Shown in pieces: positions 1-41,948 of a DNA stretch of 41,948 bases. Origin of the DNA: a virus; the IMG/VR virus record IMGVR_UViG_3300044726_000067, positions 1 through 41,948 of that record; one strand, given 5' to 3'. Every line of letters starts with the position of its first letter. Position 1 is the first letter of the stretch. The notes under the pieces were generated by a model. It was given only the letters and a program-made list of their open reading frames with translations. It did not search any database and was not told the origin of the DNA. The translations under genes and the position numbers were made by a program.

Positions 1-129
1 CCCGGACGTGGTGCAGGTGATGGTGAAGAACGGCGACAAGACATCGAACGCGATGCCGTTCACGTTCCACGCCGAGGCCGCGCAGCGTAAGGCGCCGCCC
101 AAGGCGAATAAGCGCAAGGGTAAGGGCGT
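1..129. repeat. Terminal direct repeat, left copy
   Basis: This segment is the same as the last 129 bases of the window (41820-41948) except at one base: T at 121 against C at 41940. The reading frame that runs off the right end continues here without interruption, so the repeat marks the joining point of a circular or terminally redundant molecule. The difference falls in the third position of a glycine codon and is silent. Confidence 0.97.
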
Positions 130-2009: not shown

Positions 2010-3032
2010 ATGCCAAATATTCAAGCGACATCTGCCTATCAACAAGTGCTGTCGATGGCCCTGGAAGAGCGTTCCAGCGGCTACGAGGATATGGTTTCCA
2101 ACAACAACGCGCTGCTCGCCGTGATGAAGCGCAAAGGCCTGTGGCAGACCTATTCAGGTCCGCGCATCAGGCAGACGCTGCAAGTCGGTAAGCAGGTTGC
2201 CCAGTGGTACTCAGGCTACGACCAGCTGCTGAACCCCGCGATCGATCTGTTCAATGACGCCTACTACGATCCCAAGATGGTCGTGGTGCCGATCGTGTTG
2301 TCGATGCAGGAGATCCTGAACAACCAGGGCGACAACCAGCTGATGGACGTCTACGACAGCTACATCGATGCTGCCGAGCGTTCACTGGAAGACACCATGG
2401 ACGCCGCGCTGTATGGCGACGGCACCGCCAACGGCGGCAAGGCGCTGACCGGCCTCGCGACTGCGGTGCCGATCATCACCAACACCGGCAACTACGGCGG
2501 CATCGATCGCGCCACCGCGATCATCTGGCAGACCAAGACCTACGACGCGCAGACCTATCTGCCGGCGGTCGGCACGCAGGTGAACGCCACCACCATCCGC
2601 CCGCTGCTCAACAGCATCATGACCAAGCATTCGCGCAATCGTGACTACGCGGATCTGATCATCATGTCGCCTGAGCATTACGCGGCGTATGACGCGGCGA
2701 CGATCGCGATCCAGCGTCAGACCAACGAGACATCGATGGGCAAGCTGGGTTTCAGCGCGCTCGAATATGTCGGCGGCGGTAAGCGCGCAGAGATCGTGCT
2801 CGACGGCGGCATTGGCTCGAACATGCCAGCGAACACCTCGTTCGGCCTGAACACCGACAGCTTCCGGCTCCGTTATCACCCGGAGCGCAACTTCGACAAG
2901 CTGTTCGACGGCGAAGGTCAGATGCCGATTGATAAGGACGCGATCGCGCAATTCATAGGTTGGATGGGCGAGCTAACGATGACAAATCCAATGTTCAATT
3001 GGCGTCTCATCGACAGCAACCCGGCCGCTTAA
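2010..3032 (+). CDS. Major capsid protein
   Basis: 340 residues, ATG at 2010 behind GGAGAACC. It forms the icosahedral shell. The sequence has the marks of an HK97-fold coat protein of the type found in rhizobial podovirus-like phages: an N-terminal helical segment with SMALEERSSGYEDMV, a central region with SLEDTMDAALYGDG, and a C-terminal part with VGGGKRAEIVLDGG, then RYHPERNFDKL and FIGWMGELTMTNP. Its size fits an unprocessed coat protein with separate scaffold. It sits between scaffold and head-tail genes. Two hairpins follow the gene, which may hold down transcription of the genes after it relative to the coat gene. Confidence 0.93.
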   Translation: MPNIQATSAYQQVLSMALEERSSGYEDMVSNNNALLAVMKRKGLWQTYSGPRIRQTLQVGKQVAQWYSGYDQLLNPAIDLFNDAYYDPKMVVVPIVLSMQEILNNQGDNQLMDVYDSYIDAAERSLEDTMDAALYGDGTANGGKALTGLATAVPIITNTGNYGGIDRATAIIWQTKTYDAQTYLPAVGTQVNATTIRPLLNSIMTKHSRNRDYADLIIMSPEHYAAYDAATIAIQRQTNETSMGKLGFSALEYVGGGKRAEIVLDGGIGSNMPANTSFGLNTDSFRLRYHPERNFDKLFDGEGQMPIDKDAIAQFIGWMGELTMTNPMFNWRLIDSNPAA

Positions 3033-3150: not shown

Positions 3151-3876
3151 ATGCCGATCGATCCTCGTAACCCAGACGCCAGTCTGGTGCCGATTTTCAA
3201 GAACTGGGCGCAGCCGAACCCGGCCAAGACCGCGCAGGCGGGCCGCCCGATGTATGATGACGTCGAGATCGTGGAGATCCGCTTTCCCGGCTCGCGCGCC
3301 GTGAGCGTGTTTCCCGCCACTGCGTTCTCGCACTGGGCGATCGACCCGAACAACGGCGGCCAGATCAAGGTCAGCTACGCGGAGCGGTTCGAGCGCCAGT
3401 ACCGTCAGTTCAAGATGCACGCGCAGCAGACCAAGACCGGCACGCCGCTGGAGCATGCGCCGTTCCTGACCGAGGCACGCCGCGCCGAGATGAAGGCGCT
3501 CAACATCTACACCGTCGAGGCGCTCGCCGACGTCGACGGCCAGGAGCTGAAGAACCTCGGCCACGGCGGCCGCGAGCTGAAGAACGCCGCGATCGAATAC
3601 ATCGCCAGCGCCCGCACCGGCGCCAACACCACGCAGCTCCAGGCCGAGCTGGAGGCGCTGCGCGCCAAGAACCAGGCCCTGGAGGATGACGTCACGGCGC
3701 TGAAGCAGAAGGCCGCCGCGGTGCCGGCGCCGGGCGCCGACGACTTCGACGACATGAGCCCGGACCAGCTGCGCGAATACATCGCCACCAACACCGGGCA
3801 CATGCCGCAGGGCAATCTCTCGCCCAAGACGCTGATGCGGATGGCGCGTGACGCGCGGCCGAGCAAGGCTGCCTGA
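3151..3876 (+). CDS. Head operon protein with helix-hairpin-helix-like segment and coiled coil
   Basis: 241 residues, ATG at 3151 behind CTGGAGACAAG. Three parts are visible. Residues 1-100 have an [14 protein letters not shown] type beta-rich core. Residues 108-152 read [20 protein letters not shown] followed by [15 protein letters not shown], which looks like a helix-hairpin-helix or SAM-like element (a 'progress to deeper element' pattern). Residues 159-190 form a short coiled coil ([24 protein letters not shown]), and the end resembles a SAP/HeH-type small helical motif ([15 protein letters not shown]). Place between capsid and adaptor genes suggests a head-completion or minor structural part that may touch DNA. 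TGATG overlap couples it to the next gene. Confidence 0.75.
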
Positions 3877-6092
3877 TGACCATCCTGACGGTCGTAAAAG
3901 ACGTCTGTGCCGCGGTCGGCGTTGCGACGCCGACCTCGCTGTTCGCGTCGATTGCGTCCAACAGGACCATGCAGGAGATGCTGGCGCTCGCCAACGAGAT
4001 GGCGCAGCGCATCGCCTACGACACCCGCGAGTGGGCGCAGCTAAAGAAGACGGCGACCTATGCCGGCGACGGTGCCGTCAGCCCCGTCGACGGCATCATG
4101 TACGGCACCACCGCGTTCAATCTGCCGGTCGACTTCAAGCGCATGCTGCTGACGGCGGAGGTGTGGCGCTCGACTGACACCATGACGCCGATGCTGTTCG
4201 TCTCGGACACCAACGAGTGGATGCGCCGTCGCGCCAGCACGACCGTCGACAGCAGCGGCGAATGGACGATCCTCAACGGGCAGATGCACATCTTCCCAAT
4301 GATGCCGGTCGGAGTGTCGGCGACTTTCGCCTACATCCACCGCAACTGCGTGGTGCTGACATCTGGCGGCTACGGCGACGCGTTCGTCAGCGACGGTGAC
4401 CGCTACATCCTCGACGAGCGCGTGCTGAAGCTGGGGATGATCTGGCAGTGGAAGGCGCAGAAGGGCAGTCCGTATGCCGAGGACATGGGCACCTACGGCG
4501 ACGCCTTAAACACTTCGTCTGGCGCTGACACGCCGGCCCCGATCCTGATCGGGCGCTCGACGATGTCGGAGCAGATGTCGACGCAGACACCGACGCACTT
4601 TAACGTCGCGCTGGGATTGCCGGGGCCGCCCGGACCGCAGGGGCCGCCCGGTGTCGACGGTGCGCCCGGCCCTCCTGGCGCTGATGGCGTTGACGGCACG
4701 CCCGGTGGTCCGCCAGGGCCGGCAGGTCCCGCAGGACCGGCTGGCGCTGATGGCGCGCCCGGCGCAACGGGCCCGCAGGGGCCGCCCGGCCTCCCTGGCG
4801 TGCCCGGGACGACACCCGGCACGGCGACGCCGCTGCCGAACGCGGCGACCGGCTTTGTCGGATCGGCGACGGCGTTCTCGCGCGAAGACCATCAGCACCC
4901 GCTTGTGCCGGATAACACCCGCGCCACGGTGACCTATGTCGACCAGCAGGACGCGCTGCGGGTCTTGAAGACCGGCGACAGTATGAGCGGGCACCTCAGC
5001 TTGCCGGTCGGGCCCGCCAGCACCAATGCGGTGCGCAAGGACTACGTCGACGGCGCGATCCTCGCCTACGCGGCGCCGTTCGATGCGATCGCCTACGGCG
5101 GCATGCAGCTCAACGGACTGTTCGACATCAGCCAAGAGCGCGCCATGACTGCGCTGGTCGGCAACGGTTACATCATGGATGGCTGGGCGCAATTTTCTAC
5201 TGCGCCGGTCGTGCTCTCCAGCGCGCAGACCATCAACGGTTTTAACGGCGGCAGCTTTCATCTGCGGGTCAACGTGCAGACGGCGAGCGCCACGCCCGCG
5301 GCCGCGCAGGTTTATCAATACATCGAAGGCTCGCGCATGGTCCGGCTGGGGTGGGGGTTTGCCAACCCAACGCCGATGACGATCGCGTTCTGGTCTAACC
5401 ATCATCGCCCCGGCCTCTACACGGGGGCGGTGCGCAACGGTAACAACACGCGGAGCTGCGCCTTCTCCTACACTCAGGCCGCAGCGGACACGCCGCAGTA
5501 CAATGTTGTGACAATCCCCGGCGACACCACTGGGGCTTGGTCGACCGGCAATACCCGCGGTGCGCTGGTGGTGTTTAGTCTTTCCGCAGCAGCGGCTGAG
5601 CTGGCCCCATCATTCGGCACTTGGGTGGCCGGCTCTTACGGTGGCGGTCCCGGACAGATCAACGGCGCAGCGGATACGAACGATGTCTTTCGCCTCGGCT
5701 GCGTTGCCTTTTTCCCCGGGACGGTGGCACCGACCGCGGCGCAGTCGACGCTGATCATGCGGCCGACCGAGCAAGAGATCGCGACGTGTCAGAGATATTG
5801 GCGCAAGACACGCGCGTTCGCTGGGATTGCATATAGCACAGCTAACGTAGCGGTTCTTGTTGAGCATAAAAATATGCGGGCCACTCCTACTAGCGGACAA
5901 ACTGCGCTGATAACAATAACAGACGTTTATGCGGCCAATCCAGTGCAAGCTAGTGCATCAGTTGTAGATGTGACTAACAGCGCAGATAGTGGACAGTATG
6001 GCCTTGGTACGTTCACCGGGTTGACTTCAGGCCGCTACTATACCTGTCATCAAAGTAGCTCTGGCTTTTTAGTTCTTGACGCGAGGCTGTGA
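3876..6092 (+). CDS. Head-tail adaptor fused to collagen-like stalk and tail-fibre domain
   Basis: 738 residues. Residues 1 to about 225 match the helical head-tail adaptor class (P22 gp4/T7 gp11 type): [15 protein letters not shown], then [21 protein letters not shown], and [15 protein letters not shown]. Residues 247 to about 314 are Gly-X-Y triplets ([19 protein letters not shown] and so on), a collagen-like triple helix with one break. Next come the [10 protein letters not shown] linker and the [20 protein letters not shown] repeat, both common in tail fibres. The last 330 residues form a beta-rich domain ending with [13 protein letters not shown], a motif of fibre heads. In P22 the adaptor ring and the receptor-binding protein are separate genes, so this fusion is unusual. 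Translation is coupled to the gene before it (TGATG) and to the one after. Confidence 0.85.
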
Positions 6093-6295
6093 TGGCAGAC
6101 TACGCCCTGACAGCGACAGAGTATGTAATCCGCACCGAGGATAGTGCGTGCATTCCACCTGACCCTGACAACCGCGACTGGGTCGAGTATCAGGCGTGGC
6201 TCGAAGACGGTGGCGTGCCCGACCCCTACGTTCCTCCTGCAACAACCAAGCCTGCGCCCGCGAAAGCAAAAGCAAAGCCGGGGAGAAAGCGGTGA
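6092..6295 (+). CDS. Small tail-fibre-associated protein
   Basis: 67 residues from ATG 6092 (GTG 6089 is an alternative). The start overlaps the stop of the fibre gene as TGATG. It carries the pattern IPPDPDNRDWVEYQAWLEDG followed by G-x-P-D-P-Y. This I/R-P-x-D-x-x-N-x-D-(W/Y)-x-x-Y-x-x-W-x-x-x-G-x-x-P-x-P pattern is known from short proteins encoded right after phage tail fibres, and from the ends of tail fibre assembly proteins. The C-terminus is a Lys/Ala/Pro tail. It probably helps fibre folding or is a small fibre component; this is inferred from place and motif. Confidence 0.8.
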   Translation: MADYALTATEYVIRTEDSACIPPDPDNRDWVEYQAWLEDGGVPDPYVPPATTKPAPAKAKAKPGRKR

Positions 6296-7959
6296 GCATC
6301 CACCAGCAATTCCGCCGGACGCCGGTGCCGCAGCAGGCGATGCAGCAGATGCAGGTGGCGCAGATCCCGGCGCCGAACCGCGGCATTATCGAGAGCGAGA
6401 ACCTTGCATTCATGCCGCCCGGCGCCTCGCTGGTGCAGGAGAATTGGGTCTCGACCATGCGCGGTGTGCGGCTGCGTGGCGGCTCTATCCGCTGGTGCGA
6501 CCTGCACGCGCTCGACACCACGGTGCCGCCGGTGCCGTCGCCACTGCGTCAGCCAGTGGTCTCGGCATTCGAGTACGTCAGCGGCAACATCCAGCGCATG
6601 TTCGCGGCGCAGCGCACCAAGCTGTTCGACGTCACCGCCGCCGGGCCGATCTTGGTCAAGGACAATCAGACGTCCGGCAATTACGCCGCCTCGCAGATGG
6701 CGAACGCCAGCGGCGACTATCTGACCGCGGTCAACGACGGCGGCGACTTTCCGCTGCGGTACGACGGCACGACGTGGACGGTGTTGGACGCCAACCAGAT
6801 CAGCGGGCCGGTCGGCTCGCGGGTCGAGCACGGCCGCAACCTCACCTACGTCTGGAAGTATCGTAACCGGCTGTTCTTCATCGAGGGCGCCTCGATGAAC
6901 GCGTGGTATCTGCCGCTCAACGCGATCAACGGCACGCTGGCCATGATCCCGCTGTCAGGCGCCGCAACCAAAGGCGGCCGGCTGCTGTTCGGTGCGACGT
7001 GGTCTTTGGATGCCGGCGACGGCATCGACGACAAGATCGTCATAGGGACCGACCTCGGAGAGTTGCTGATTTTCACGGGCAGCAACCCGGCTGACGCCGC
7101 GAACTGGCGCCAGGAGGGCCGCTACGAGGTGGCGCCGCCGCTGGGCATGAACGCGCACCACCCGATTGGCGGCGACCTGCTGCTGGCGACGGTCGAGGGC
7201 GTCGTGCCGGTGTCGGCAGCAATCTCCAAGGACAGCACCCAGCTCGAACTGGCAGCGATCACGCGCCCGATCAAAAACACATGGCGCGCGGAGATGTTGG
7301 AGAAGCGCCAGCACCCGTGGTCGATGGAGCGATGGGACGAGTATGGCGGGCTGTTCGTAACGTGGCCCTACGGCAAGCCCGGCGAGCAGCGATGCGGAGT
7401 GGTCAACATCTCGACCGGCGCGTGGTCGAAGATTGTCGGATGGGACGCGACCTGCTTCTGCCGGCTGCGCGGCGACATGTTCTTCGGCACGCAGGACGGC
7501 ATCATCATGCAGGCCGACCGCACTGGCTACGACGACGGCAACCACCGCAAGATCCCGTATGTCGCCACCCTGGTCGGTGGCTGGGAGCAATTCCGCACCG
7601 GCGGCGGCACTGTGGTGTGGCGGCAGGCGCGGGCATCGTTCTTCGCCAGCAACGGCGAGCCGTTCCAGCCGCAGCTGTCGGCGACCACCGACTACCTCAT
7701 CAAGATCCCGACGCCGCCGCCGGCCGGCGCCGATCCTGGTCTGCAAGACGTCTGGGACCAGGGGCTGTGGGATCAGGCCAAATGGGACCAGCCGTCGCTG
7801 GGCGTGCCGGTGGTGCGCAACACCGGCTGGGTGTCGATCGGCGAGACCGGCTACACCCATGCACCGATCATACAGGTGACGGTGGCGCAGCAGGCCACAC
7901 CGAAAGTCGAACTGATCGTAATCGCCGCGACCTACGAGCGCGCCGGTTACGCCGTCTGA
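6292..7959 (+). CDS. Tail hub / packaged-DNA stabilization protein (P22 gp10-like)
   Basis: 555 residues from GTG 6292, which overlaps the previous stop (GTGA) and has GGGAG at 6281. An upstream in-frame ATG at 6196 would bury the start inside the preceding gene and is not preferred. The sequence shows the stabilization-protein pattern: ENLAFMPPGASLVQENWVST near the N-terminus, followed by many short beta repeats (LKYRNRLFFIEGASMNAWY, GLFVTWPYGKPGEQR, LRGDMFFGTQDGIIMQAD). These fit a beta-propeller-like hub that closes the portal channel below the adaptor ring. Order after the adaptor gene is the same as in P22-like heads. Confidence 0.85.
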   Translation: MSIHQQFRRTPVPQQAMQQMQVAQIPAPNRGIIESENLAFMPPGASLVQENWVSTMRGVRLRGGSIRWCDLHALDTTVPPVPSPLRQPVVSAFEYVSGNIQRMFAAQRTKLFDVTAAGPILVKDNQTSGNYAASQMANASGDYLTAVNDGGDFPLRYDGTTWTVLDANQISGPVGSRVEHGRNLTYVWKYRNRLFFIEGASMNAWYLPLNAINGTLAMIPLSGAATKGGRLLFGATWSLDAGDGIDDKIVIGTDLGELLIFTGSNPADAANWRQEGRYEVAPPLGMNAHHPIGGDLLLATVEGVVPVSAAISKDSTQLELAAITRPIKNTWRAEMLEKRQHPWSMERWDEYGGLFVTWPYGKPGEQRCGVVNISTGAWSKIVGWDATCFCRLRGDMFFGTQDGIIMQADRTGYDDGNHRKIPYVATLVGGWEQFRTGGGTVVWRQARASFFASNGEPFQPQLSATTDYLIKIPTPPPAGADPGLQDVWDQGLWDQAKWDQPSLGVPVVRNTGWVSIGETGYTHAPIIQVTVAQQATPKVELIVIAATYERAGYAV

Positions 7960-7969
7960 GGAGAGAACA

Positions 7970-8452
7970 ATGGCGGCCGACGCACCAATTCCGACACCGA
8001 TCCCCGCGGCTGCCGCGGCGGATCCCGCCGCCGACACGGTCGCTGGCTCGCTCGATCAGTTCTACGATCCGGTCGGCGCGATGGGCGGACGGTTCGCGCC
8101 GGCTTACGTCCGCGGCTACGCGCCGTCCGAGGCGGCAGTGGCGGCGTGGCAGGCGAAGAACCGGCCGCTGGAGGGCATGGACCTCGACACCCTGCGCATG
8201 CCGGAGCAGTGGCGTCCACCGGCACAGGTCAATCCCTACGCTGGCGACGTCTACGGCTCAGGCCGCATCCCGGACCAGATGAGCTTCATCACGACCGGCA
8301 AGGGTCGGCTCGACGACAACATTCTGCGCTCGTGGTCACAGGGCGGACCGTATGACGTCGACGCGCGGCGCAACGCGATCGCCAAGCGCCTCACCGACAA
8401 CGAGGCGGCGCAGAAGGCATACACGCCGCCCAAGCAATGGTGGGAGATGTGA
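7970..8452 (+). CDS. Hypothetical virion-region protein
   Basis: 160 residues, ATG at 7970 behind GAGGAGAGAAC. The first 40 residues are Ala/Pro-rich; the rest is polar, with segments PEQWRPPAQVNPYAGDVYG and GPYDVDARRNAIAKRL. No family is recognised. It lies between the tail hub gene and the GNAT-fold gene and overlaps the latter, so it is most likely a minor virion or morphogenesis protein. It has no signal peptide or membrane span. Confidence 0.75.
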   Translation: MAADAPIPTPIPAAAAADPAADTVAGSLDQFYDPVGAMGGRFAPAYVRGYAPSEAAVAAWQAKNRPLEGMDLDTLRMPEQWRPPAQVNPYAGDVYGSGRIPDQMSFITTGKGRLDDNILRSWSQGGPYDVDARRNAIAKRLTDNEAAQKAYTPPKQWWEM

Positions 8453-8949
8453 CGTTCGAGCTGCTCTATGGGTACGACACGCTGGTCGCGAATTTCGTCG
8501 CGCAGCTGATCCCGCATTGCCGCCGAGGCTTCGGCGACACTGCGAAGGCGATCGGCGTGCTCGATGCCGACGGCCGTCTCGTCGCCGGTGTCGTCTACCA
8601 CAACTACGACCCCGAGGCGCAGATCATGGAGATGAGCGGCGCCTCGATCGATCCGCGCTGGATGACGCGGCGCGTGGTCGGCAGCACGTTCCAGTATCCG
8701 TTCTTGCAGTGCGGCTGTCAGATGGTGGTGATGCGTCTGCCGGCCGACAACGAACGCATGCTGCGGCAGTGCGCGGTGTTCAACTTCGTGTTCACCGAGC
8801 TGCCGCGACTGTTCGGGCGCGAGCGTGACGGCGTGGTTGCGACGCTGACGTTCGAGGACTGGGCGGCGAACAAATTCAACAAGCGGTTCAAGTGGCACAT
8901 CGACAACCGGTTGATCTATGCCCCTGAATACACCGAGGAGGCCGCGTGA
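8449..8949 (+). CDS. GNAT-fold acetyltransferase-like phage protein
   Basis: 166 residues if started at GTG 8449 (GTGA overlap with the preceding stop); ATG 8437 would add four residues. The protein begins with FELLYGYDTLVANFVAQLIP, then AIGVLDADGRLVAGVVYHNY, a pattern known from GNAT-like proteins in tail gene clusters of many alphaproteobacterial phages. Later parts (FNKRFKWHIDNRL near the end) fit the same family. Members are thought to have an acyltransferase fold, but a substrate is not known; a role in virion assembly or host protein modification is equally open. The classical R-x-x-G-x-G/A acetyl-CoA loop is not obvious, so activity is uncertain. Confidence 0.8.
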   Translation: MTFELLYGYDTLVANFVAQLIPHCRRGFGDTAKAIGVLDADGRLVAGVVYHNYDPEAQIMEMSGASIDPRWMTRRVVGSTFQYPFLQCGCQMVVMRLPADNERMLRQCAVFNFVFTELPRLFGRERDGVVATLTFEDWAANKFNKRFKWHIDNRLIYAPEYTEEAA

Positions 8950-9827: not shown

Positions 9828-11315
9828 ATGGGTAAGCCATCACCGCCGTCACCGCCTAATCCGGTCGACACTGCGCGCGCCTCGACGTCGACCAATGTCG
9901 GCACGTCGATCACCAATGCGTATCTGGGCAACACCAACCAGATCACGCCGGACGGCAGTCTGACTTACGAGACGACCGGCGAGCACACCTGGGACGATCC
10001 CTACACCGGCTTATCGATAAAGATCCCGACGTTTACGGCGACGCAGAAGCTGTCGGACGCGCAGCAGGCGATCAAGGACCAGACCGACGCCGCCAAGGTC
10101 GGGCTCGCCGGCATGGCGAACTATCAGACCGGGCGCCTGTCCAATCTGATGAAAAGCGAGATCGATCTCAGCAAGGCGCCGACGCCCGGCGACCCCAGCG
10201 GGATCGGCAACATCCTCGCGCCTTCGACCTCGTTCGGCGCCGCCGGCGATCCGCAGGCCAGCCTCGGCGATTACGGCAAGCAACTCACCGAGTTCGGTGA
10301 CGCCGGCGCGATCACGAAAGATTACGGACCGGCAGACAACTTTTCTGCCGATCGCGGGCGCGTCGAGGAGGCGTTGTACGGGCGGCTCAATCCGCAGCTC
10401 CAGCGCGAGCGCGGCAACATCGAGCAGCGCCTCGCCGACCAGGGCATTCGCTACGGCAGTCAGGCCTACACGGCGGCGATGGATGACTACAATCGCCAAG
10501 CCAATGATCTGCGCCTCGGCGTGACCGCCGCCGGCGGCCAAGAGCAGCAGCGCATGATGGACATGGCTGCGCAGCGCGCCGGCTTTCAGAACGCCGCGCA
10601 GCAGCAGGACTTCACCCAAAAATACGGCCGCGCGCAGTTCGCCAACGAAGGGCAAAAGCAACAATTTCAGGAGACGCTCCAGGCTGGTCAGTTCGCCAAT
10701 GAAGCGCAGCGCAACAAGTTCACGCAGGAGGCAGCACGCGGCGAGTTCGCCAACGCCGGGCTGGCGCAGCAGGTCGCGCAGAAGCAGTCCGAGTTCAATG
10801 CGAAGAATATGGCGCGCAATCAATACATGTCGGAGCAGTACGCGCTCCGCAACCAGCCGATCAACGAAATCTCGGCTCTACTTAGCGGTTCACAGATTAA
10901 CAATCCAAACTTTGTGAATACGCCAAATAATCAAATCCCGACTACTGATGTCGCCGGCTTAATCAACACAAGATTTAGCCAGGACATGGACATTTATAAG
11001 CAGGAGAGCGCGAACTATAACGCGATGATGGGCGGTTTGATGGGGATGGCCGGCGGGATGATGAAAATGTCTGACCGCGCGCGCAAAGACGACATCCACA
11101 AGATCGCGACGGTGTTCTCGGCGAGTGATGACGGCGGCAGCAAGAAACTGCCGATCTACAGCTACACCTACAAAGACGATCCAGACAACACGCCTCAGAT
11201 CGGGCCGATGGCGCAAGACGTCGAGAAGATTGACCGCGGCGCAGTGCAGACGCATCGCGGCACCAAGTACATCGACGAGCAGCGAGTGATGGGCAACATT
11301 CTGAGGGCTGCGTAA
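9828..11315 (+). CDS. Virion protein with C-terminal peptidase S74 (self-cleaving chaperone) domain
   Basis: 495 residues, ATG at 9828 (GAGGGTGAGAC upstream). The N-terminus has the pattern NVGTSITNAYLGNTNQITPD, then GSLTYETTG, found in a family of tail-cluster proteins. Residues about 255-335 are Gln/Ala-rich with near repeats of a QFANE unit (three copies), likely a long helix. From about 414 the sequence SDRARKDDI, then LPIYSYTYKDDPDNTPQIGP and MAQDVEK, is that of peptidase S74 domains, which aid trimer folding and then cut themselves off. The Ser-Lys pair expected for cleavage is S415 and K420, five apart as in endosialidase. It may be a fibre or ejection-associated protein. Confidence 0.85.
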   Translation: MGKPSPPSPPNPVDTARASTSTNVGTSITNAYLGNTNQITPDGSLTYETTGEHTWDDPYTGLSIKIPTFTATQKLSDAQQAIKDQTDAAKVGLAGMANYQTGRLSNLMKSEIDLSKAPTPGDPSGIGNILAPSTSFGAAGDPQASLGDYGKQLTEFGDAGAITKDYGPADNFSADRGRVEEALYGRLNPQLQRERGNIEQRLADQGIRYGSQAYTAAMDDYNRQANDLRLGVTAAGGQEQQRMMDMAAQRAGFQNAAQQQDFTQKYGRAQFANEGQKQQFQETLQAGQFANEAQRNKFTQEAARGEFANAGLAQQVAQKQSEFNAKNMARNQYMSEQYALRNQPINEISALLSGSQINNPNFVNTPNNQIPTTDVAGLINTRFSQDMDIYKQESANYNAMMGGLMGMAGGMMKMSDRARKDDIHKIATVFSASDDGGSKKLPIYSYTYKDDPDNTPQIGPMAQDVEKIDRGAVQTHRGTKYIDEQRVMGNILRAA

Positions 11316-16354: not shown

Positions 16355-18076
16355 ATGCCACGCGACGGCTCAGGTATTTACTCTCGCCCGCCCGGCACTG
16401 ACGGCGCTCCCGACACCACGATCGAGAGCGCGAAGTACAATGCGTTCGTCGCCGACATAGAGCAGGACGCTAACACTGCACGCCCAATCATCGCTGGCGG
16501 CACCGGTGCGAACAACGCGCGCGATGCAATGGTCACGCTGAAGGGCGAGATCACACAACAGCTCGTCGACAATTACGACATGTACCCGTTTATCTCCGGG
16601 TCATTCTATTCAACGACCGGCGCGACCGCGTCGCCGGTTGCCGGGCACGGGTTTGTCGGGATCTGCTACGCCGCCGACACCAACAATATGGTTCTGGAGG
16701 CGCGCGACCAGACCGACACGGTAGTGCCCGGCCGCAAGTATGCGCGCGAGAAGAAGTCCGGTGTGTGGGGTGCGTGGAAGGTCGACGGCCGCACGATTGT
16801 GGGCGACGCCGAGGGCATTGGTAGCGAAGCCGCCGATATGTTCTTCGGCGTCGAGGGCACCGCGCCGGCGTCCGCGTTTATCGTCAACAGCGAGAGCGAC
16901 AACAGCGGCACCGATTTGCTGCGCGTCACCAAGGCCGGTGCGTTCGAGGTTCGCGGTGTGCCGGGCGGCTACACGGTAGTAGGGCTACACAAATCTGCGA
17001 TCGGGATGGGGACTGGGATCACGGGCTACGATCCTACCGGCAAGGCCCGCTGGCTGATGTACATGGGCGACGGCTCCGCGGAGAGCGGCGCCAACGCGGG
17101 CAGCAATTTCGAGGTCCACCGCTATGACGACGCTGGCACCTATCTCGGTCGAGCGATGCAGATCGAGCGCAGCACCGGCAAGACGGCGGTCGGCCCGCTC
17201 GACGTTGGTGGCGACATCCGCGGGACCGGCCACGTCCGGGTGAACAACGACGTCACCCTTGGGATGGGGGTGGCCGCCGGCGGCGTGGTTTATTTTGGCA
17301 ACACCGGCGCACAGAGGATTGCTCACGACGGCACCCAATTTCAGGTGTACGGCGGTGACTTTAAGATCAACACCAACGCCATTGTCGGCGCACAGCTCCG
17401 GGTCGGAGCGAACGGTGCCGACGGCGTCATCCGCTTCACCAGCGGCGCCGGCGATCCGTACATCTACTACAACGGTAATTTCAATTTTAACGGCGGCGAC
17501 GTCTACACCGGCTCGCGGTTTATCAGCAACAGCGACATCCACTGCAATTCGAGCCTCGCCTTCGGTCCGGTCGGCACCGTCAAGTATATGCAGCTCACCG
17601 GCAGCAACCTGAACATCTACAACATGGTGGTTTCACCGAACGCCGGTCTGACCATGACCGGCGGGCAGATACTGCCGGTGTATAACGCCACGGGGATCGC
17701 TGCCGGGGCTGGCAATGCGGGCCTGGAGGTCAGGAGTAGTGGCAGTAACGACGCGTGGGTGTCGTTTCACCGCACTGGCGTGTTCGCCACTAACTTTGGG
17801 CTGTCGAGCGACCACAACCTCTGGCTTGGCGGCTGGTCGTTTGGCGCGGTCGCCTACAAGGTTCTCACGACGCGCGAGGTTGGCGCAGTCGTCAGTTCGT
17901 TCCGAACGGTCTACGCCGGCGACTTTGAGCACGTCTACCAAAACGGCATGCAGGAGCCCTACGGCTCGACGGCGGCCGTCAGCGGATGCCAGCAAGGCAA
18001 CGGCATCGCCACGTTCCGCTACCGCTATCATCAGATGCTTCAGAACGGCGCGTGGGCCAACATCGAGGCTTCGTAA
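16355..18076 (+). CDS. Tail fibre or tail spike protein
   Basis: 573 residues, ATG at 16355 behind GGGAGATAGCG. The N-terminus has the pattern DGSGIYSRPPGTDGAPDTTI, then SAKYNAFVADIEQDANTARP and IIAGGTGAN, common at the start of phage tail fibres. The central 400 residues are rich in Gly, Asn and Thr with repeating beta-like units (VYFGNTGAQRIAHDGTQFQV, YIYYNGNFNFNGG), fitting a trimeric beta-rich fibre. The C-terminal part ends FRYRYHQMLQNGAWANIEAS. It is a second candidate receptor-binding protein besides the adaptor-fibre fusion. No S74 domain of its own is present. Confidence 0.85.
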   Translation: MPRDGSGIYSRPPGTDGAPDTTIESAKYNAFVADIEQDANTARPIIAGGTGANNARDAMVTLKGEITQQLVDNYDMYPFISGSFYSTTGATASPVAGHGFVGICYAADTNNMVLEARDQTDTVVPGRKYAREKKSGVWGAWKVDGRTIVGDAEGIGSEAADMFFGVEGTAPASAFIVNSESDNSGTDLLRVTKAGAFEVRGVPGGYTVVGLHKSAIGMGTGITGYDPTGKARWLMYMGDGSAESGANAGSNFEVHRYDDAGTYLGRAMQIERSTGKTAVGPLDVGGDIRGTGHVRVNNDVTLGMGVAAGGVVYFGNTGAQRIAHDGTQFQVYGGDFKINTNAIVGAQLRVGANGADGVIRFTSGAGDPYIYYNGNFNFNGGDVYTGSRFISNSDIHCNSSLAFGPVGTVKYMQLTGSNLNIYNMVVSPNAGLTMTGGQILPVYNATGIAAGAGNAGLEVRSSGSNDAWVSFHRTGVFATNFGLSSDHNLWLGGWSFGAVAYKVLTTREVGAVVSSFRTVYAGDFEHVYQNGMQEPYGSTAAVSGCQQGNGIATFRYRYHQMLQNGAWANIEAS

Positions 18077-35716: not shown

Positions 35717-36001
35717 ATGACGATCAAGCGTGCCGAGCCCAAGACCGCACTGACGTTCGAGGAAGAGATCACCGCGGCATTCATGCATTACGTTCGCGGC
35801 ATCGCGCAGCAGGACATCGCCATCATGATGGGCGGCGTCAACGGCGGCCGCGTCAATGAAGCCTGCCTCGCCATCAAGGGCGCGCTCGCCGCCAACCGGC
35901 GCAAGGTGCGAACCGAATACCGTGTCGAGCGGTCACACCGGCCTACGGCCGAACACGTTGCGGAGATGCTGGCGCTGAACGGGGACGCACCAAATGGCTG
36001 A
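35717..36001 (+). CDS. Helix-turn-helix-like protein before portal (small terminase candidate)
   Basis: 94 residues, ATG at 35717, with AAAGG upstream. The segment AAFMHYVRGIAQQDIAIMMG, then GVNGGRVNEACLAIKGAL, reads like a helix-turn-helix (helix, Q-Q-D-I-A as first helix of the motif, N-G-G-R-V-N-E-A as the second). The same Q-x-D-(I/L)-A-x-x-x-x-V-N-x-G-R-V-x-E-A pattern occurs in short DNA-binding-like proteins near terminase in many phages. A DNA-binding small terminase or late regulator would suit. Stop overlaps the portal start. Confidence 0.75.
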   Translation: MTIKRAEPKTALTFEEEITAAFMHYVRGIAQQDIAIMMGGVNGGRVNEACLAIKGALAANRRKVRTEYRVERSHRPTAEHVAEMLALNGDAPNG

Positions 36002-38321
36002 TCCAACGCCCGGCAAGCCGGTTGAGAACGACATCCGCCACGACGATCTGGAGTTCAATCCGGCGCTGGAGCCGCGCAAGTCGAAGGCGTGGCTGAACAT
36101 GTTGCAGGAGAGCGAAGACGCGTTCCAGCCGTGGAACGATCACTGCGACCGCATCGACAAGCAGTTCGCCAACCTGGAGCGGCTGTCGATGATGGCGCGC
36201 GACAAAGAGTTCCAGATGTTCTGGGCCAACGTCGAAGTGATCAGGCCGGCAATCCTGGCGAAGCCGCCGCGGCCGGTGGTGGTGACGAAGTTCAAGGACC
36301 GTCGCCCGGTCTATCAGGCCGCGGCCGAGGTGATGGAGCGATGCACCACGGTGGCGTTCGACATCGCGCGCATCGAGGATCTGATGCTGCTGGTGCGTGA
36401 CGATCTGGTGATGGCATCACGCGGTGTTGCGTGGTGCCGCTACGAGAGCGCCCGCGGCGACAGCTACTACGAGCACGAGAAGGTCTGCATCGACTTCAAG
36501 CAGCGTCGCGACTTCCTGCACAGCATCTCGCGATCGTGGCCCGAGGTCACCTGGGTCGCGGCCGCGAGCTACCTGACGCGCGCGCAGGCGCGTAAGCGGT
36601 TCCGCAAGCACTCAGGCGACGCCTACCAGGACGCCGAGTACAAGGTCGACAAGGACAGCAAAGAGATCGGCGGCGCCGACAGTCGCGAGCGCGCAAAATT
36701 CTGGGAGATCTGGTCGAAGACCGAACGCCGCGTGGTGTGGGTCGCGCAGGGCTGCGAGAAGATCCTCGATGAGGACGAGCCGCACCTCGACCTCGAATGC
36801 TTTTTCCCGTGTCCCAAGCCGGCCTACGGCGTGGTGCAGCGCGGCTCGCTGGTGCCGGTGCCGGACGTGTTGCAGTATCGCGACCAGCTGGAGGAGCTGA
36901 ACCTGCTGACCAGCCGCATCCACGCGCTGTCAGACGCGCTGGAGGTCAAAGGGTTCTACCCAAGCGGCGGCGCTGAGCTCGCATCCGCGATCGAGACCGC
37001 GATCAAGACCAAGACGCCCGGCCGCATGCTGATACCGATCGCAAATTGGGCCGCCTTCGGCGGCACCAAGGAAGTGATCGTGTGGATACCGATCGAGGCG
37101 ATCGCGCAGACCATCACCGCGCTGGTGGCGCTGCGAAAACAAATCATTGAAGACATTTATCAGATCATGGGGCTGTCCGACATCATGCGCGGCGCCAGCG
37201 ATGCGCGCGAGACGCTGGGTGCGCAGCAGCTGAAGAGCCAGTTCGGGTCGAGCCGCATCCGTGACAAGCAGACCGAGATGGTTCGCATGTCGAAGGATCT
37301 GGTCGGCATCACCGCCGAGATCATCTGCCAGAGCTACAGCCCGGTTACCATCATCGAGATGAGCCAGACGCAGCTGCCGACGCAGGCGATGCGTGACAAG
37401 CAGATCCAGCAGTTGCAGATGCAACTCGGCAACCAGCAGCTCGCGATGCAAAAACTACAACAGCTGCCGCAGGCGCAGCAGATGGCGCAGCAGAACCCGC
37501 AGCAGGCACAGGAGCTGATGCAGAAGGGCCAGCAGCTGCTGCAACACGGCCAGGACGCGATCAAGAAGATCCTGGCCAAGCCAACGATCGAGCAGGTGCT
37601 GACGCTGTTCGAGAACACCCGCGCCAAGTCATTCATCTTCGACATCGAGACCGACAGCACGATCATGATCGACGAGAACGCGGAGAAGCAACGCCGCGGC
37701 GAGTATCTCGCGGCATTGTCGGCGCTGCTACCGCAGCTGGCTCAGATGCTGGCGGCCGAGCCCAAGGCCGCGGAGTTCTGCGGCGAGCTCTTGAAGTTCG
37801 CCACCGCGCCGTTCCGTGCCGGCCGCCAGTTCGAAGGCGCGATCGACGAGCTGGTCGAGAACATGAAGCAGAAGGCCGACCAGCCCAAGCCAGACGATCC
37901 GATCACCGCGCAGAACAAGGCCGCGATGCAGATCGAGACCATGAAGAACGATCGCGCCAAGGAGCGCGACAAGGCGGAGATGGCGCTGAAGGCTACCGAG
38001 CTGAAGCAGCGTGACGAACACGAGAAGCTAAAGATCTCCAGCCAGGAGCGCATCAAGGCCGCCGAGCTGCGGGCGAAGCAGCAGGACGACGAGGCGCGTG
38101 CGCAGCTGACCAACAGCAAGGCGATGCAGCAACGCGAGAAGCATCAGGCTGACATGTTCGGCAAGGACCAGGACATCCAGGTCGCGCAGCAGAAGGCCGA
38201 GATCGCCCGGCAGGCGGCCGAGGACCGCAGGATGGACATGGCGGCGCGGCAGAGCGAGCGCCTCGCCGCGCAGCAGTTCAAGCAGTCGCAGCAGGTGACG
38301 CCGTACTTCGGAGGGCACTGA
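35994..38321 (+). CDS. Portal protein
   Basis: 775 residues, ATG 35994 overlapping the upstream gene. Twelve copies form the ring for DNA entry. N-terminal and central parts have the P22 gp1-like build: WANVEVIRPAILAKPPRPVV, DLVMASRGVAWCRYESARGD, AKFWEIWSKTERRVVWVAQG, QYRDQLEELNLLTSRIHALS (wing and stem), then RKQIIEDIYQIMGLSDIMRG and ETLGAQQLKSQFGSSRIRDK. Past residue 460 the chain is Gln-rich and helical to the end, with strong coiled coil (DKAEMALKATELKQRDEHEK). This very long C-terminal part would make a barrel inside the head, as in P22. The size is like P22 portal (725 residues). Confidence 0.95.
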   Translation: MADPTPGKPVENDIRHDDLEFNPALEPRKSKAWLNMLQESEDAFQPWNDHCDRIDKQFANLERLSMMARDKEFQMFWANVEVIRPAILAKPPRPVVVTKFKDRRPVYQAAAEVMERCTTVAFDIARIEDLMLLVRDDLVMASRGVAWCRYESARGDSYYEHEKVCIDFKQRRDFLHSISRSWPEVTWVAAASYLTRAQARKRFRKHSGDAYQDAEYKVDKDSKEIGGADSRERAKFWEIWSKTERRVVWVAQGCEKILDEDEPHLDLECFFPCPKPAYGVVQRGSLVPVPDVLQYRDQLEELNLLTSRIHALSDALEVKGFYPSGGAELASAIETAIKTKTPGRMLIPIANWAAFGGTKEVIVWIPIEAIAQTITALVALRKQIIEDIYQIMGLSDIMRGASDARETLGAQQLKSQFGSSRIRDKQTEMVRMSKDLVGITAEIICQSYSPVTIIEMSQTQLPTQAMRDKQIQQLQMQLGNQQLAMQKLQQLPQAQQMAQQNPQQAQELMQKGQQLLQHGQDAIKKILAKPTIEQVLTLFENTRAKSFIFDIETDSTIMIDENAEKQRRGEYLAALSALLPQLAQMLAAEPKAAEFCGELLKFATAPFRAGRQFEGAIDELVENMKQKADQPKPDDPITAQNKAAMQIETMKNDRAKERDKAEMALKATELKQRDEHEKLKISSQERIKAAELRAKQQDDEARAQLTNSKAMQQREKHQADMFGKDQDIQVAQQKAEIARQAAEDRRMDMAARQSERLAAQQFKQSQQVTPYFGGH

Positions 38322-41209: not shown

Positions 41210-41948
41210 GCACGAAAAACTATGAGCAGGAGAGGGCGCCTCCACACGATAACGACGCCGTCATGCATGACGGCGGCGACGATCGGCTGCTGATCGACAA
41301 GCCGTTCGACTTCATCGAGCGCACGCGGCCAGAGGACCGAGTGCCCGCGGAGGGTTTCCACGGGCAGATCACCCGCGACAACGTCAACCCGAACATTCCG
41401 AGCGCACCGCACGGCGAGGGGCAGATCGTCGACCCCAACACACTGGGCATGCCGCAAGGGATCGAGGGTGTGCCGGCACCACAGGTGCAGCAGCAAGACC
41501 CAACTGCACCGCACGGGTCGGGCACAGCCGCCAGTATCAACGAGCCTCCGGGTTCGACGATCGGCAGCGAGAACCCTGGTGGGCCGGGGGGCCCACCGGC
41601 GGGAGGCGGCGGACAGCCGGGCGGCGAGACGCAGACGCCGACTATCACGGCGCTGGAGCCGGATGAGTGTACGATCGGCGAGGAGACGTTCGATCTGTTT
41701 GTCAGCGGCACCAACTTCACCGAGGACAGCGTGATCGTGTTCGCCGGCCAGGACGAGCCCACTGACTTGGAAGATGACGGCACACTGTCGACCGGCATCA
41801 ACATGGACGTGTGGCACGGCCCGGACGTGGTGCAGGTGATGGTGAAGAACGGCGACAAGACATCGAACGCGATGCCGTTCACGTTCCACGCCGAGGCCGC
41901 GCAGCGTAAGGCGCCGCCCAAGGCGAATAAGCGCAAGGGCAAGGGCGT
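41206..41948 (+). CDS. Second IPT/TIG-like virion protein (runs off the end; continues at 1-154)
   Basis: Starts at ATG 41206, overlapping the previous stop (ATGA). With the part at 1-154 it is 255 residues. The N-terminal 140 residues are Pro/Gly/Asp-rich (GGPGGPPAGGGGQPGGE). Then comes an Ig-like IPT/TIG domain (ITALEPDECTIGEETFDLFV, SGTNFTEDSVIVFAGQD, VVQVMVKNGDKTSNAMPFTF). It shares the SGTNFT-x-x-S-V-I core with the protein upstream, so they are paralogues or share a repeated module. The C-terminal tail is basic. Confidence 0.85.
   Translation, partial: MSTKNYEQERAPPHDNDAVMHDGGDDRLLIDKPFDFIERTRPEDRVPAEGFHGQITRDNVNPNIPSAPHGEGQIVDPNTLGMPQGIEGVPAPQVQQQDPTAPHGSGTAASINEPPGSTIGSENPGGPGGPPAGGGGQPGGETQTPTITALEPDECTIGEETFDLFVSGTNFTEDSVIVFAGQDEPTDLEDDGTLSTGINMDVWHGPDVVQVMVKNGDKTSNAMPFTFHAEAAQRKAPPKANKRKGKG
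41820..41948. repeat. Terminal direct repeat, right copy
   Basis: Same as bases 1-129 but for C at 41940 (T at 121). It shows that the sequence closes on itself with a unit of about 41,819 bases. Confidence 0.97.

Follow-up and report, generated by a model that had tools for sequence, protein, structure and literature searches.

A head-tail adaptor gene fused to a collagen-like fibre in a viral genome and its relatives

Adhesins of phages are normally separate, tail-docked proteins, an arrangement in which the number of fibres and their swapping are easily varied. Where a collagen fibre is part of the same chain as a ring subunit, the symmetries of ring (12) and fibre (3) are necessarily coupled in a fixed way, and the tip that meets the host is in direct connection with the genome-retaining ring. 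A gene for such a chain appears at positions 3876-6092 of the window, the whole 41,948-nucleotide stretch of soil phage DNA analysed here (IMG/VR virus record IMGVR_UViG_3300044726_000067), and raises the questions of whether the fusion is genuine, what its two parts are and how its product might be placed in the virion. The two ends of the window (1-129 and 41820-41948) repeat each other directly over 129 bases with a single mismatch, and across this repeat two further contigs (L001 and L002) bridge its end to its start; the window is thus very likely a complete genome.

The gene is a single uninterrupted open reading frame of 738 residues, from ATG to TGA on the plus strand, and all of its parts are given on that strand. 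A head-tail adaptor domain (residues 1-227; 3876-4556), recognised by phrog_6013, an AF2 model and Foldseek comparison with the PDB, is followed by a linker (residues 228-246; 4557-4613) that holds in-frame ATG codons at 4563 (M230) and 4575 (M234) and, directly before the collagen, an FNVAL-type motif reading FNVALGLPG. Next come a collagen-like stalk (residues 247-313; 4614-4814), the fibre-linker motif SREDHQHP (residues 335-342; 4878-4901) and a fibre head (residues ~400-738; 5073-6089). The stalk has 22 Gly-X-Y triplets at residues 247-279 and 281-313, interrupted once by an extra Gly; it matches PF01391 in Pfam (E=9.6e-8; score 32.1 bits, cut-off 27.2), and its longest perfect run is 12 triplets, whereas 5000 shuffled versions of the protein never exceeded 7. 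The order and the coordinates of these domains, as given in a first-pass annotation made from the letters alone, were right as judged by the reading frame, the phrog_6013 and PF01391 matches and the position of the motif.

The same fused frame is present in three further IMG/VR contigs. One (L003) is 100% identical to the window across the fused gene, and another (L002) is also fused, its sole indel being a 12-base gap at 1488-1499 in another gene. The third (L001) is a variant strain that differs at 17 of 5240 sites without any indel and is still fused; nine of the differences fall inside the fused gene, all of them in the collagen part, and eight of these nine are synonymous. The intactness of this variant together with its largely synonymous changes makes a frameshift error very unlikely, and the synonymous excess fits a collagen that is read in the adaptor frame.

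The N-terminal part belongs to a family of 'tail proteins' (phrog_6013, E=2.3e-36, residues 1-227 against positions 1-214 of a 228-position family). Comparisons of sequence profiles gave at most a match just below threshold: the window protein gave no match to the Pfam family SU10_adaptor (PF24175) at E<=0.1, the homologue in L071 fell just under the cut-off of the same family (E=1.6e-5, 25.9 bits, cut-off 27.0), hhalign of the adaptor profile found nothing significant against T7 gp11 (E=0.05) or P22 gp4 (E=0.31 over 17 columns), and a sequence-only PDB search with adaptor profile A1 returned designed proteins alone (E>1). The assignment as an adaptor is therefore made from the predicted fold, the protein family and the order of the genes. 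An AF2 model of residues 1-246, built from 41 sequences, has a pLDDT of 81.6, with residues 217-246 at low confidence and predicted to be disordered. Foldseek matched this model to 11 PDB chains at E<=1e-3 (best E=5.7e-7), all of them portal-tail components of phages, namely cyanophage A4, Pa223, SU10, VP1, crAss001, KHP30 and LME-1, while N4, PhiM1 and T7 were matched more weakly; the SU10 adaptor (7z47) was found at E=2.7e-6 and that of T7 (6r21) at E=0.026. TM values of about 0.5 and a high rmsd against the PDB adaptors indicate a likeness of fold class, that of a helix bundle with a beta dock domain, and not close kinship.

The gene order agrees with this assignment, the fused gene being placed between the capsid gene and a nozzle-like gene as in RHph_I3_18, Mwe-JY13 and many relatives. 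The major capsid protein is encoded at 2010-3032 (+; phrog_9953, E=6e-80) and the portal protein at 35994-38321 (+; phrog_12082, E=1e-176), and a conserved gene of unknown function (phrog_20268; 3151-3876, +) lies directly upstream, its stop overlapping the start of the fused gene (TGATG). The nozzle or neck protein candidate occupies 6292-7959 (+), with GTG at 6292 and not 6196 as its likely start. It matches phrog_5107, named 'amidase', at E=2e-117, and its profile found no match in a sequence-only PDB search; the gene order and the annotation of its RHph_I3_18 homologue as 'neck protein' nevertheless suggest a tail nozzle. Taken together, the model, family and order support a head-tail adaptor of the SU10/T7/VP1/Pa223 kind, so that the earlier reading of the N-terminus as an adaptor is borne out by its predicted fold. 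The P22-like type proposed with it is not: a P22 gp4-like adaptor was rejected on the hhalign result above and because P22 is absent among the 50 listed fold matches of the model. The P22 adaptor gp4 and tailspike gp9 do hold the same functional slot in gene order, but P22 adaptors are devoid of the fibre-dock domain (PMC9509320). As tblastn detects a single adaptor copy in the window genome, the fused gene should supply the ring.

The head is a widespread fibre-head module with DARL at its end. Its anchors across the 79 loci retrieved include collagen stalks, the 'FDFPxxP..GQ' kind, the MPRDGS.. type (as in the window at 16355-18076) and others; the motif SREDHQHP is likewise common to fibres on other anchors. 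A homologue of the head in L154, where this motif reads SREDHVHP, matches the 'tail fiber' family phrog_4492 at E=5e-34. A model of residues 313-738 has a mean pLDDT of 67, with better values at about 410-620, and at this confidence the part from about residue 431 to 614 (5166-5717, +) resembles carbohydrate-binding module (CBM) families 4, 11, 22 and 61 (Foldseek E 1.8e-5 to 6e-4, TMt 0.5-0.6). A CBM-like jelly roll is thus predicted within the head, and this resemblance makes receptor binding by the head of the fused protein likely. Kinship to Cry/Vip toxins and enteropeptidase, the top Foldseek matches, was rejected at TM <=0.25, and these hits probably reflect shared jelly-roll modules. 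A small ORF of 67 residues directly downstream (6092-6295, +; phrog_20370, E=3.2e-14) moves with the fibre cassette, its family occurring also after a separate fibre gene in L175 and after a collagen fibre in L210, and is possibly a fibre assembly factor.

Relatives were collected by scanning viral contigs with three different adaptors and the head, and their adaptor genes were classed by what comes next. Among the matches listed, 107 distinct adaptor genes were classed (3 more are unclassed or incomplete), in counts that do not represent natural frequencies as the two largest scans comprise the best 80 matches each. Most of these (84/107) stand alone, with the nozzle-like gene next and nothing between. 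A separate, overlapping collagen-fibre gene comes next in 16, two adaptors terminate in a short peg of collagen, and five are fused, namely those of the window species, L040, L063, L071 and L087. The same domain order, for which a search had been proposed earlier, thus exists in L001-L003 and in a second lineage, while no report of an adaptor-fibre or collagen-fibre fusion was found in the open-access PMC literature.

The split pairs, found in soil podoviruses such as L005, L010, L059, L175 and L210 among others, share with the window the homologous adaptor, the FNVAL-type motif and the collagen stalk, but are two overlapping genes in different frames, the fibre gene being in most cases preceded by a strong ribosome site. 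In the 16 distinct cases the fibre start precedes the adaptor stop, mostly by 7-33 nucleotides, so that one small indel would be enough for fusion. A programmed frameshift in the split phages was weighed and set aside, since some of them read the fibre at +1 relative to the adaptor and others at -1, which makes a conserved frameshift unlikely. Two of the split fibres (L175 and L201) have the same head as the fused gene, and L175 also has the same small ORF before its nozzle-like gene. Judged by sequence, the window gene is this cassette of collagen stalk, head and small ORF with two frames joined, since split relatives carry the same elements; it encodes an already existing attachment in covalent form. 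Stand-alone adaptors are found in all five prophage relatives in genome contigs (Aminobacter, Mesorhizobium) and in cultured phage relatives, a distribution that points to the stand-alone gene as the ancestral state. The relatives also suggest a host among the Hyphomicrobiales. As split and fused states occur side by side in relatives, the effect of tethering on assembly and on the triggering of DNA release can be directly asked.

The end of the adaptor changes with the presence of a fibre. An [AS][YF]P end peptide (for example AYPWPVPT) is present in 71 of the 84 adaptors that have no collagen fibre next to them (L007, L015 and L022 among them), in 0 of 16 split adaptors and in 0 of 7 that are fused or short. 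Its absence in the split class alone gives a Fisher P of 5e-11, a significance that is inflated by relatedness. Nearly all of the genes in the split, short and fused classes retain the FNVAL-type motif before the collagen. These patterns suggest that the adaptor end peptide and the FNVAL opening of the fibre may do linked jobs.

The fused genes fall in two lineages, the second comprising L040, L063, L071 and L087. In the adaptor tree, the window species pairs at starred support with L004, a non-fused, fibre-free sister phage whose nozzle-like gene directly follows a stand-alone adaptor, and the other fused genes sit within a separate starred clade. Given the starred branches, the distribution of fused genes requires no fewer than three switches between the fused and the non-fused state, and the adaptor tree alone does not separate repeated gain of the fusion from one gain with several losses. 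Between the fused genes of L040 and L063 the adaptor part shows dS ~1.3 and dN 0.09 (dN/dS ~0.07, Nei-Gojobori), the same method gives dN/dS values of 0.18 for the linker and 0.29 for the collagen, and the fused frame is kept. The high dS with a retained frame indicates that their fusion is old and maintained, with purifying selection acting on the fused genes of this sister lineage. The gene in the window is thus a real, recurrent and evolutionarily maintained fusion of an SU10/T7-type adaptor, as assigned by its predicted fold, with a collagen fibre that bears a CBM-like head.

Two members of the second lineage carry tandem paralogous adaptors, a short one followed by the fused one (L040 2030-2872 and 2869-6681; L063 6001-6837 and 6837-9401). 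The short adaptors, of 278-280 residues, contain 7-8 Gly-X-Y triplets before a coiled-coil-like tail, whereas the long adaptor-fibres have 1270 or 854 residues and a C-terminal S74 chaperone domain. An attractive reading of these pairs, though not a result, would be a ring of mixed composition with long fibres on only some of its subunits.

Solved structures provide a frame for the placement of the fused protein. In SU10 and P-SCSP1u, 12 adaptor subunits carry six fibre trimers, each touching two adaptors, and the C-terminal embracing part of the adaptor reaches toward the portal (PMC9509320, PMC10575957). The window protein is like that of SU10, a Kuravirus, in adaptor fold and in having the fibres directly on the adaptor ring, since the long tail fibres gp12/gp13 of SU10 attach directly to the ring of gp11 (PMC9509320). 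SU10 differs in making its fibres as separate proteins, of which there are six per dodecamer, each gripped by the fibre-dock loops of two neighbouring adaptors, whereas the stalk and head of the window protein sit on the adaptor chain itself. T7-like phages (T7 gp11/gp12/gp17; P-SCSP1u, PMC10575957) are alike in the order of adaptor and nozzle-like genes, with a weaker fold match; their fibre is separate, with a jelly-roll/helix anchor and no collagen.

We propose that, in a single polypeptide, some 216 N-terminal residues would form one subunit of the dodecameric ring of adaptors below the portal, and the C-terminus would bear the collagen-like stalk and the probable carbohydrate-binding head. 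A flexible linker of 30 residues would let the tails of neighbouring subunits come together and wind into collagen triple helices, each with a trimeric head at its end; the adhesin would in this way be covalently tied to the neck ring and not docked on it. The exit of the fibre from the ring may lie on the neck side, given that the C-terminal part of solved adaptors reaches toward the portal. An intact adaptor-fibre chain in the ring, with the adhesin covalently attached, is considered probable. Trimer formation by the fused protein would be expected from collagen chemistry, and the copy number, a guess from 12 divided by 3, would most likely be four trimers per ring or fewer. The six separate trimers borne by solved T7/SU10-type adaptors speak against this arrangement. 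The fuller proposal, of a covalent neck-ring adhesin with at most four fixed fibres per 12-fold ring together with a mixed ring that sets the fibre number in the sister lineage, is put forward tentatively. The first-pass annotation had allowed up to twelve fibres, which clashes with its own count of trimers, as 12 chains would give four unless free chains join. Its claim of a different tail design would come down to the covalent link; fibres on the ring itself are already known from T7/SU10-type phages (PMC9509320, PMC10575957), and split relatives exist.

Free chains would be available if the gene made two products, the full-length adaptor-fibre and a free fibre started at M230 or M234; such chains could complete trimers with one tethered chain each and place six to twelve fibres on twelve adaptors. 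M230 and M234 lie 12 and 8 residues before FNVAL, near the 9 to 17 at which separate fibres start, and M234 is preceded at three bases by GGAG, with a moderate Shine-Dalgarno energy of -5.4 kcal/mol (median -2.5 for internal ATGs). The ribosome-site strength of M230 is, however, at background, and the starts of split fibres are in all but one case far stronger, mostly at -9.5 to -13.8 kcal/mol, with the one exception at -3.3. All four fused genes of the second lineage are moreover free of ATG between codon 205 and the collagen, so that a free fibre started from ATG is hardly possible there, and two products appear unlikely in the window as well.

Cleavage in the linker after assembly, leaving an ordinary adaptor and a docked fibre, would be in keeping with the predicted disorder of residues 217-246 and with retention of the FNVAL motif, which is N-terminal in separate fibres. 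No cleavage motif was recognised in the window linker, linker sequences differ between the fused lineages and the recurrence of the fusion would be left unexplained; cleavage is judged somewhat less likely still. A reduction of the adaptor part to an anchor domain, with the ring made by another protein, draws on the short-pegged second adaptor directly upstream of the fused one in L040 and L063, and is highly improbable given the single adaptor copy in the window and the purifying selection on the adaptor residues of fused copies. That a sequencing or assembly error joined two genes, a doubt raised with the first reading and conceivable in that the overlapping gene pair of relatives is one indel from fusion, is excluded as far as assemblies allow, since three other contigs including a distinct strain concur and a second fused lineage has long diverged.

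The intact adaptor-fibre would probably not be the sole adhesin of the phage, for a further tail fibre candidate with a phrog_24210 anchor lies at 16355-18076, and the gene after it, which extends up to 18607, has a weak fibre-assembly match. A Gln-rich virion structural protein (9828-11315; phrog_6121), annotated also in RHph_I3_18, has a C-terminal S74 chaperone domain, which is unusual as the protein does not resemble a fibre. Shortly downstream of the nozzle-like gene lies an acyltransferase-like gene (8437-8949; phrog_4470), and an N-acyltransferase is found at the equivalent position in RHph_I3_18 and ppBjS10J-1.
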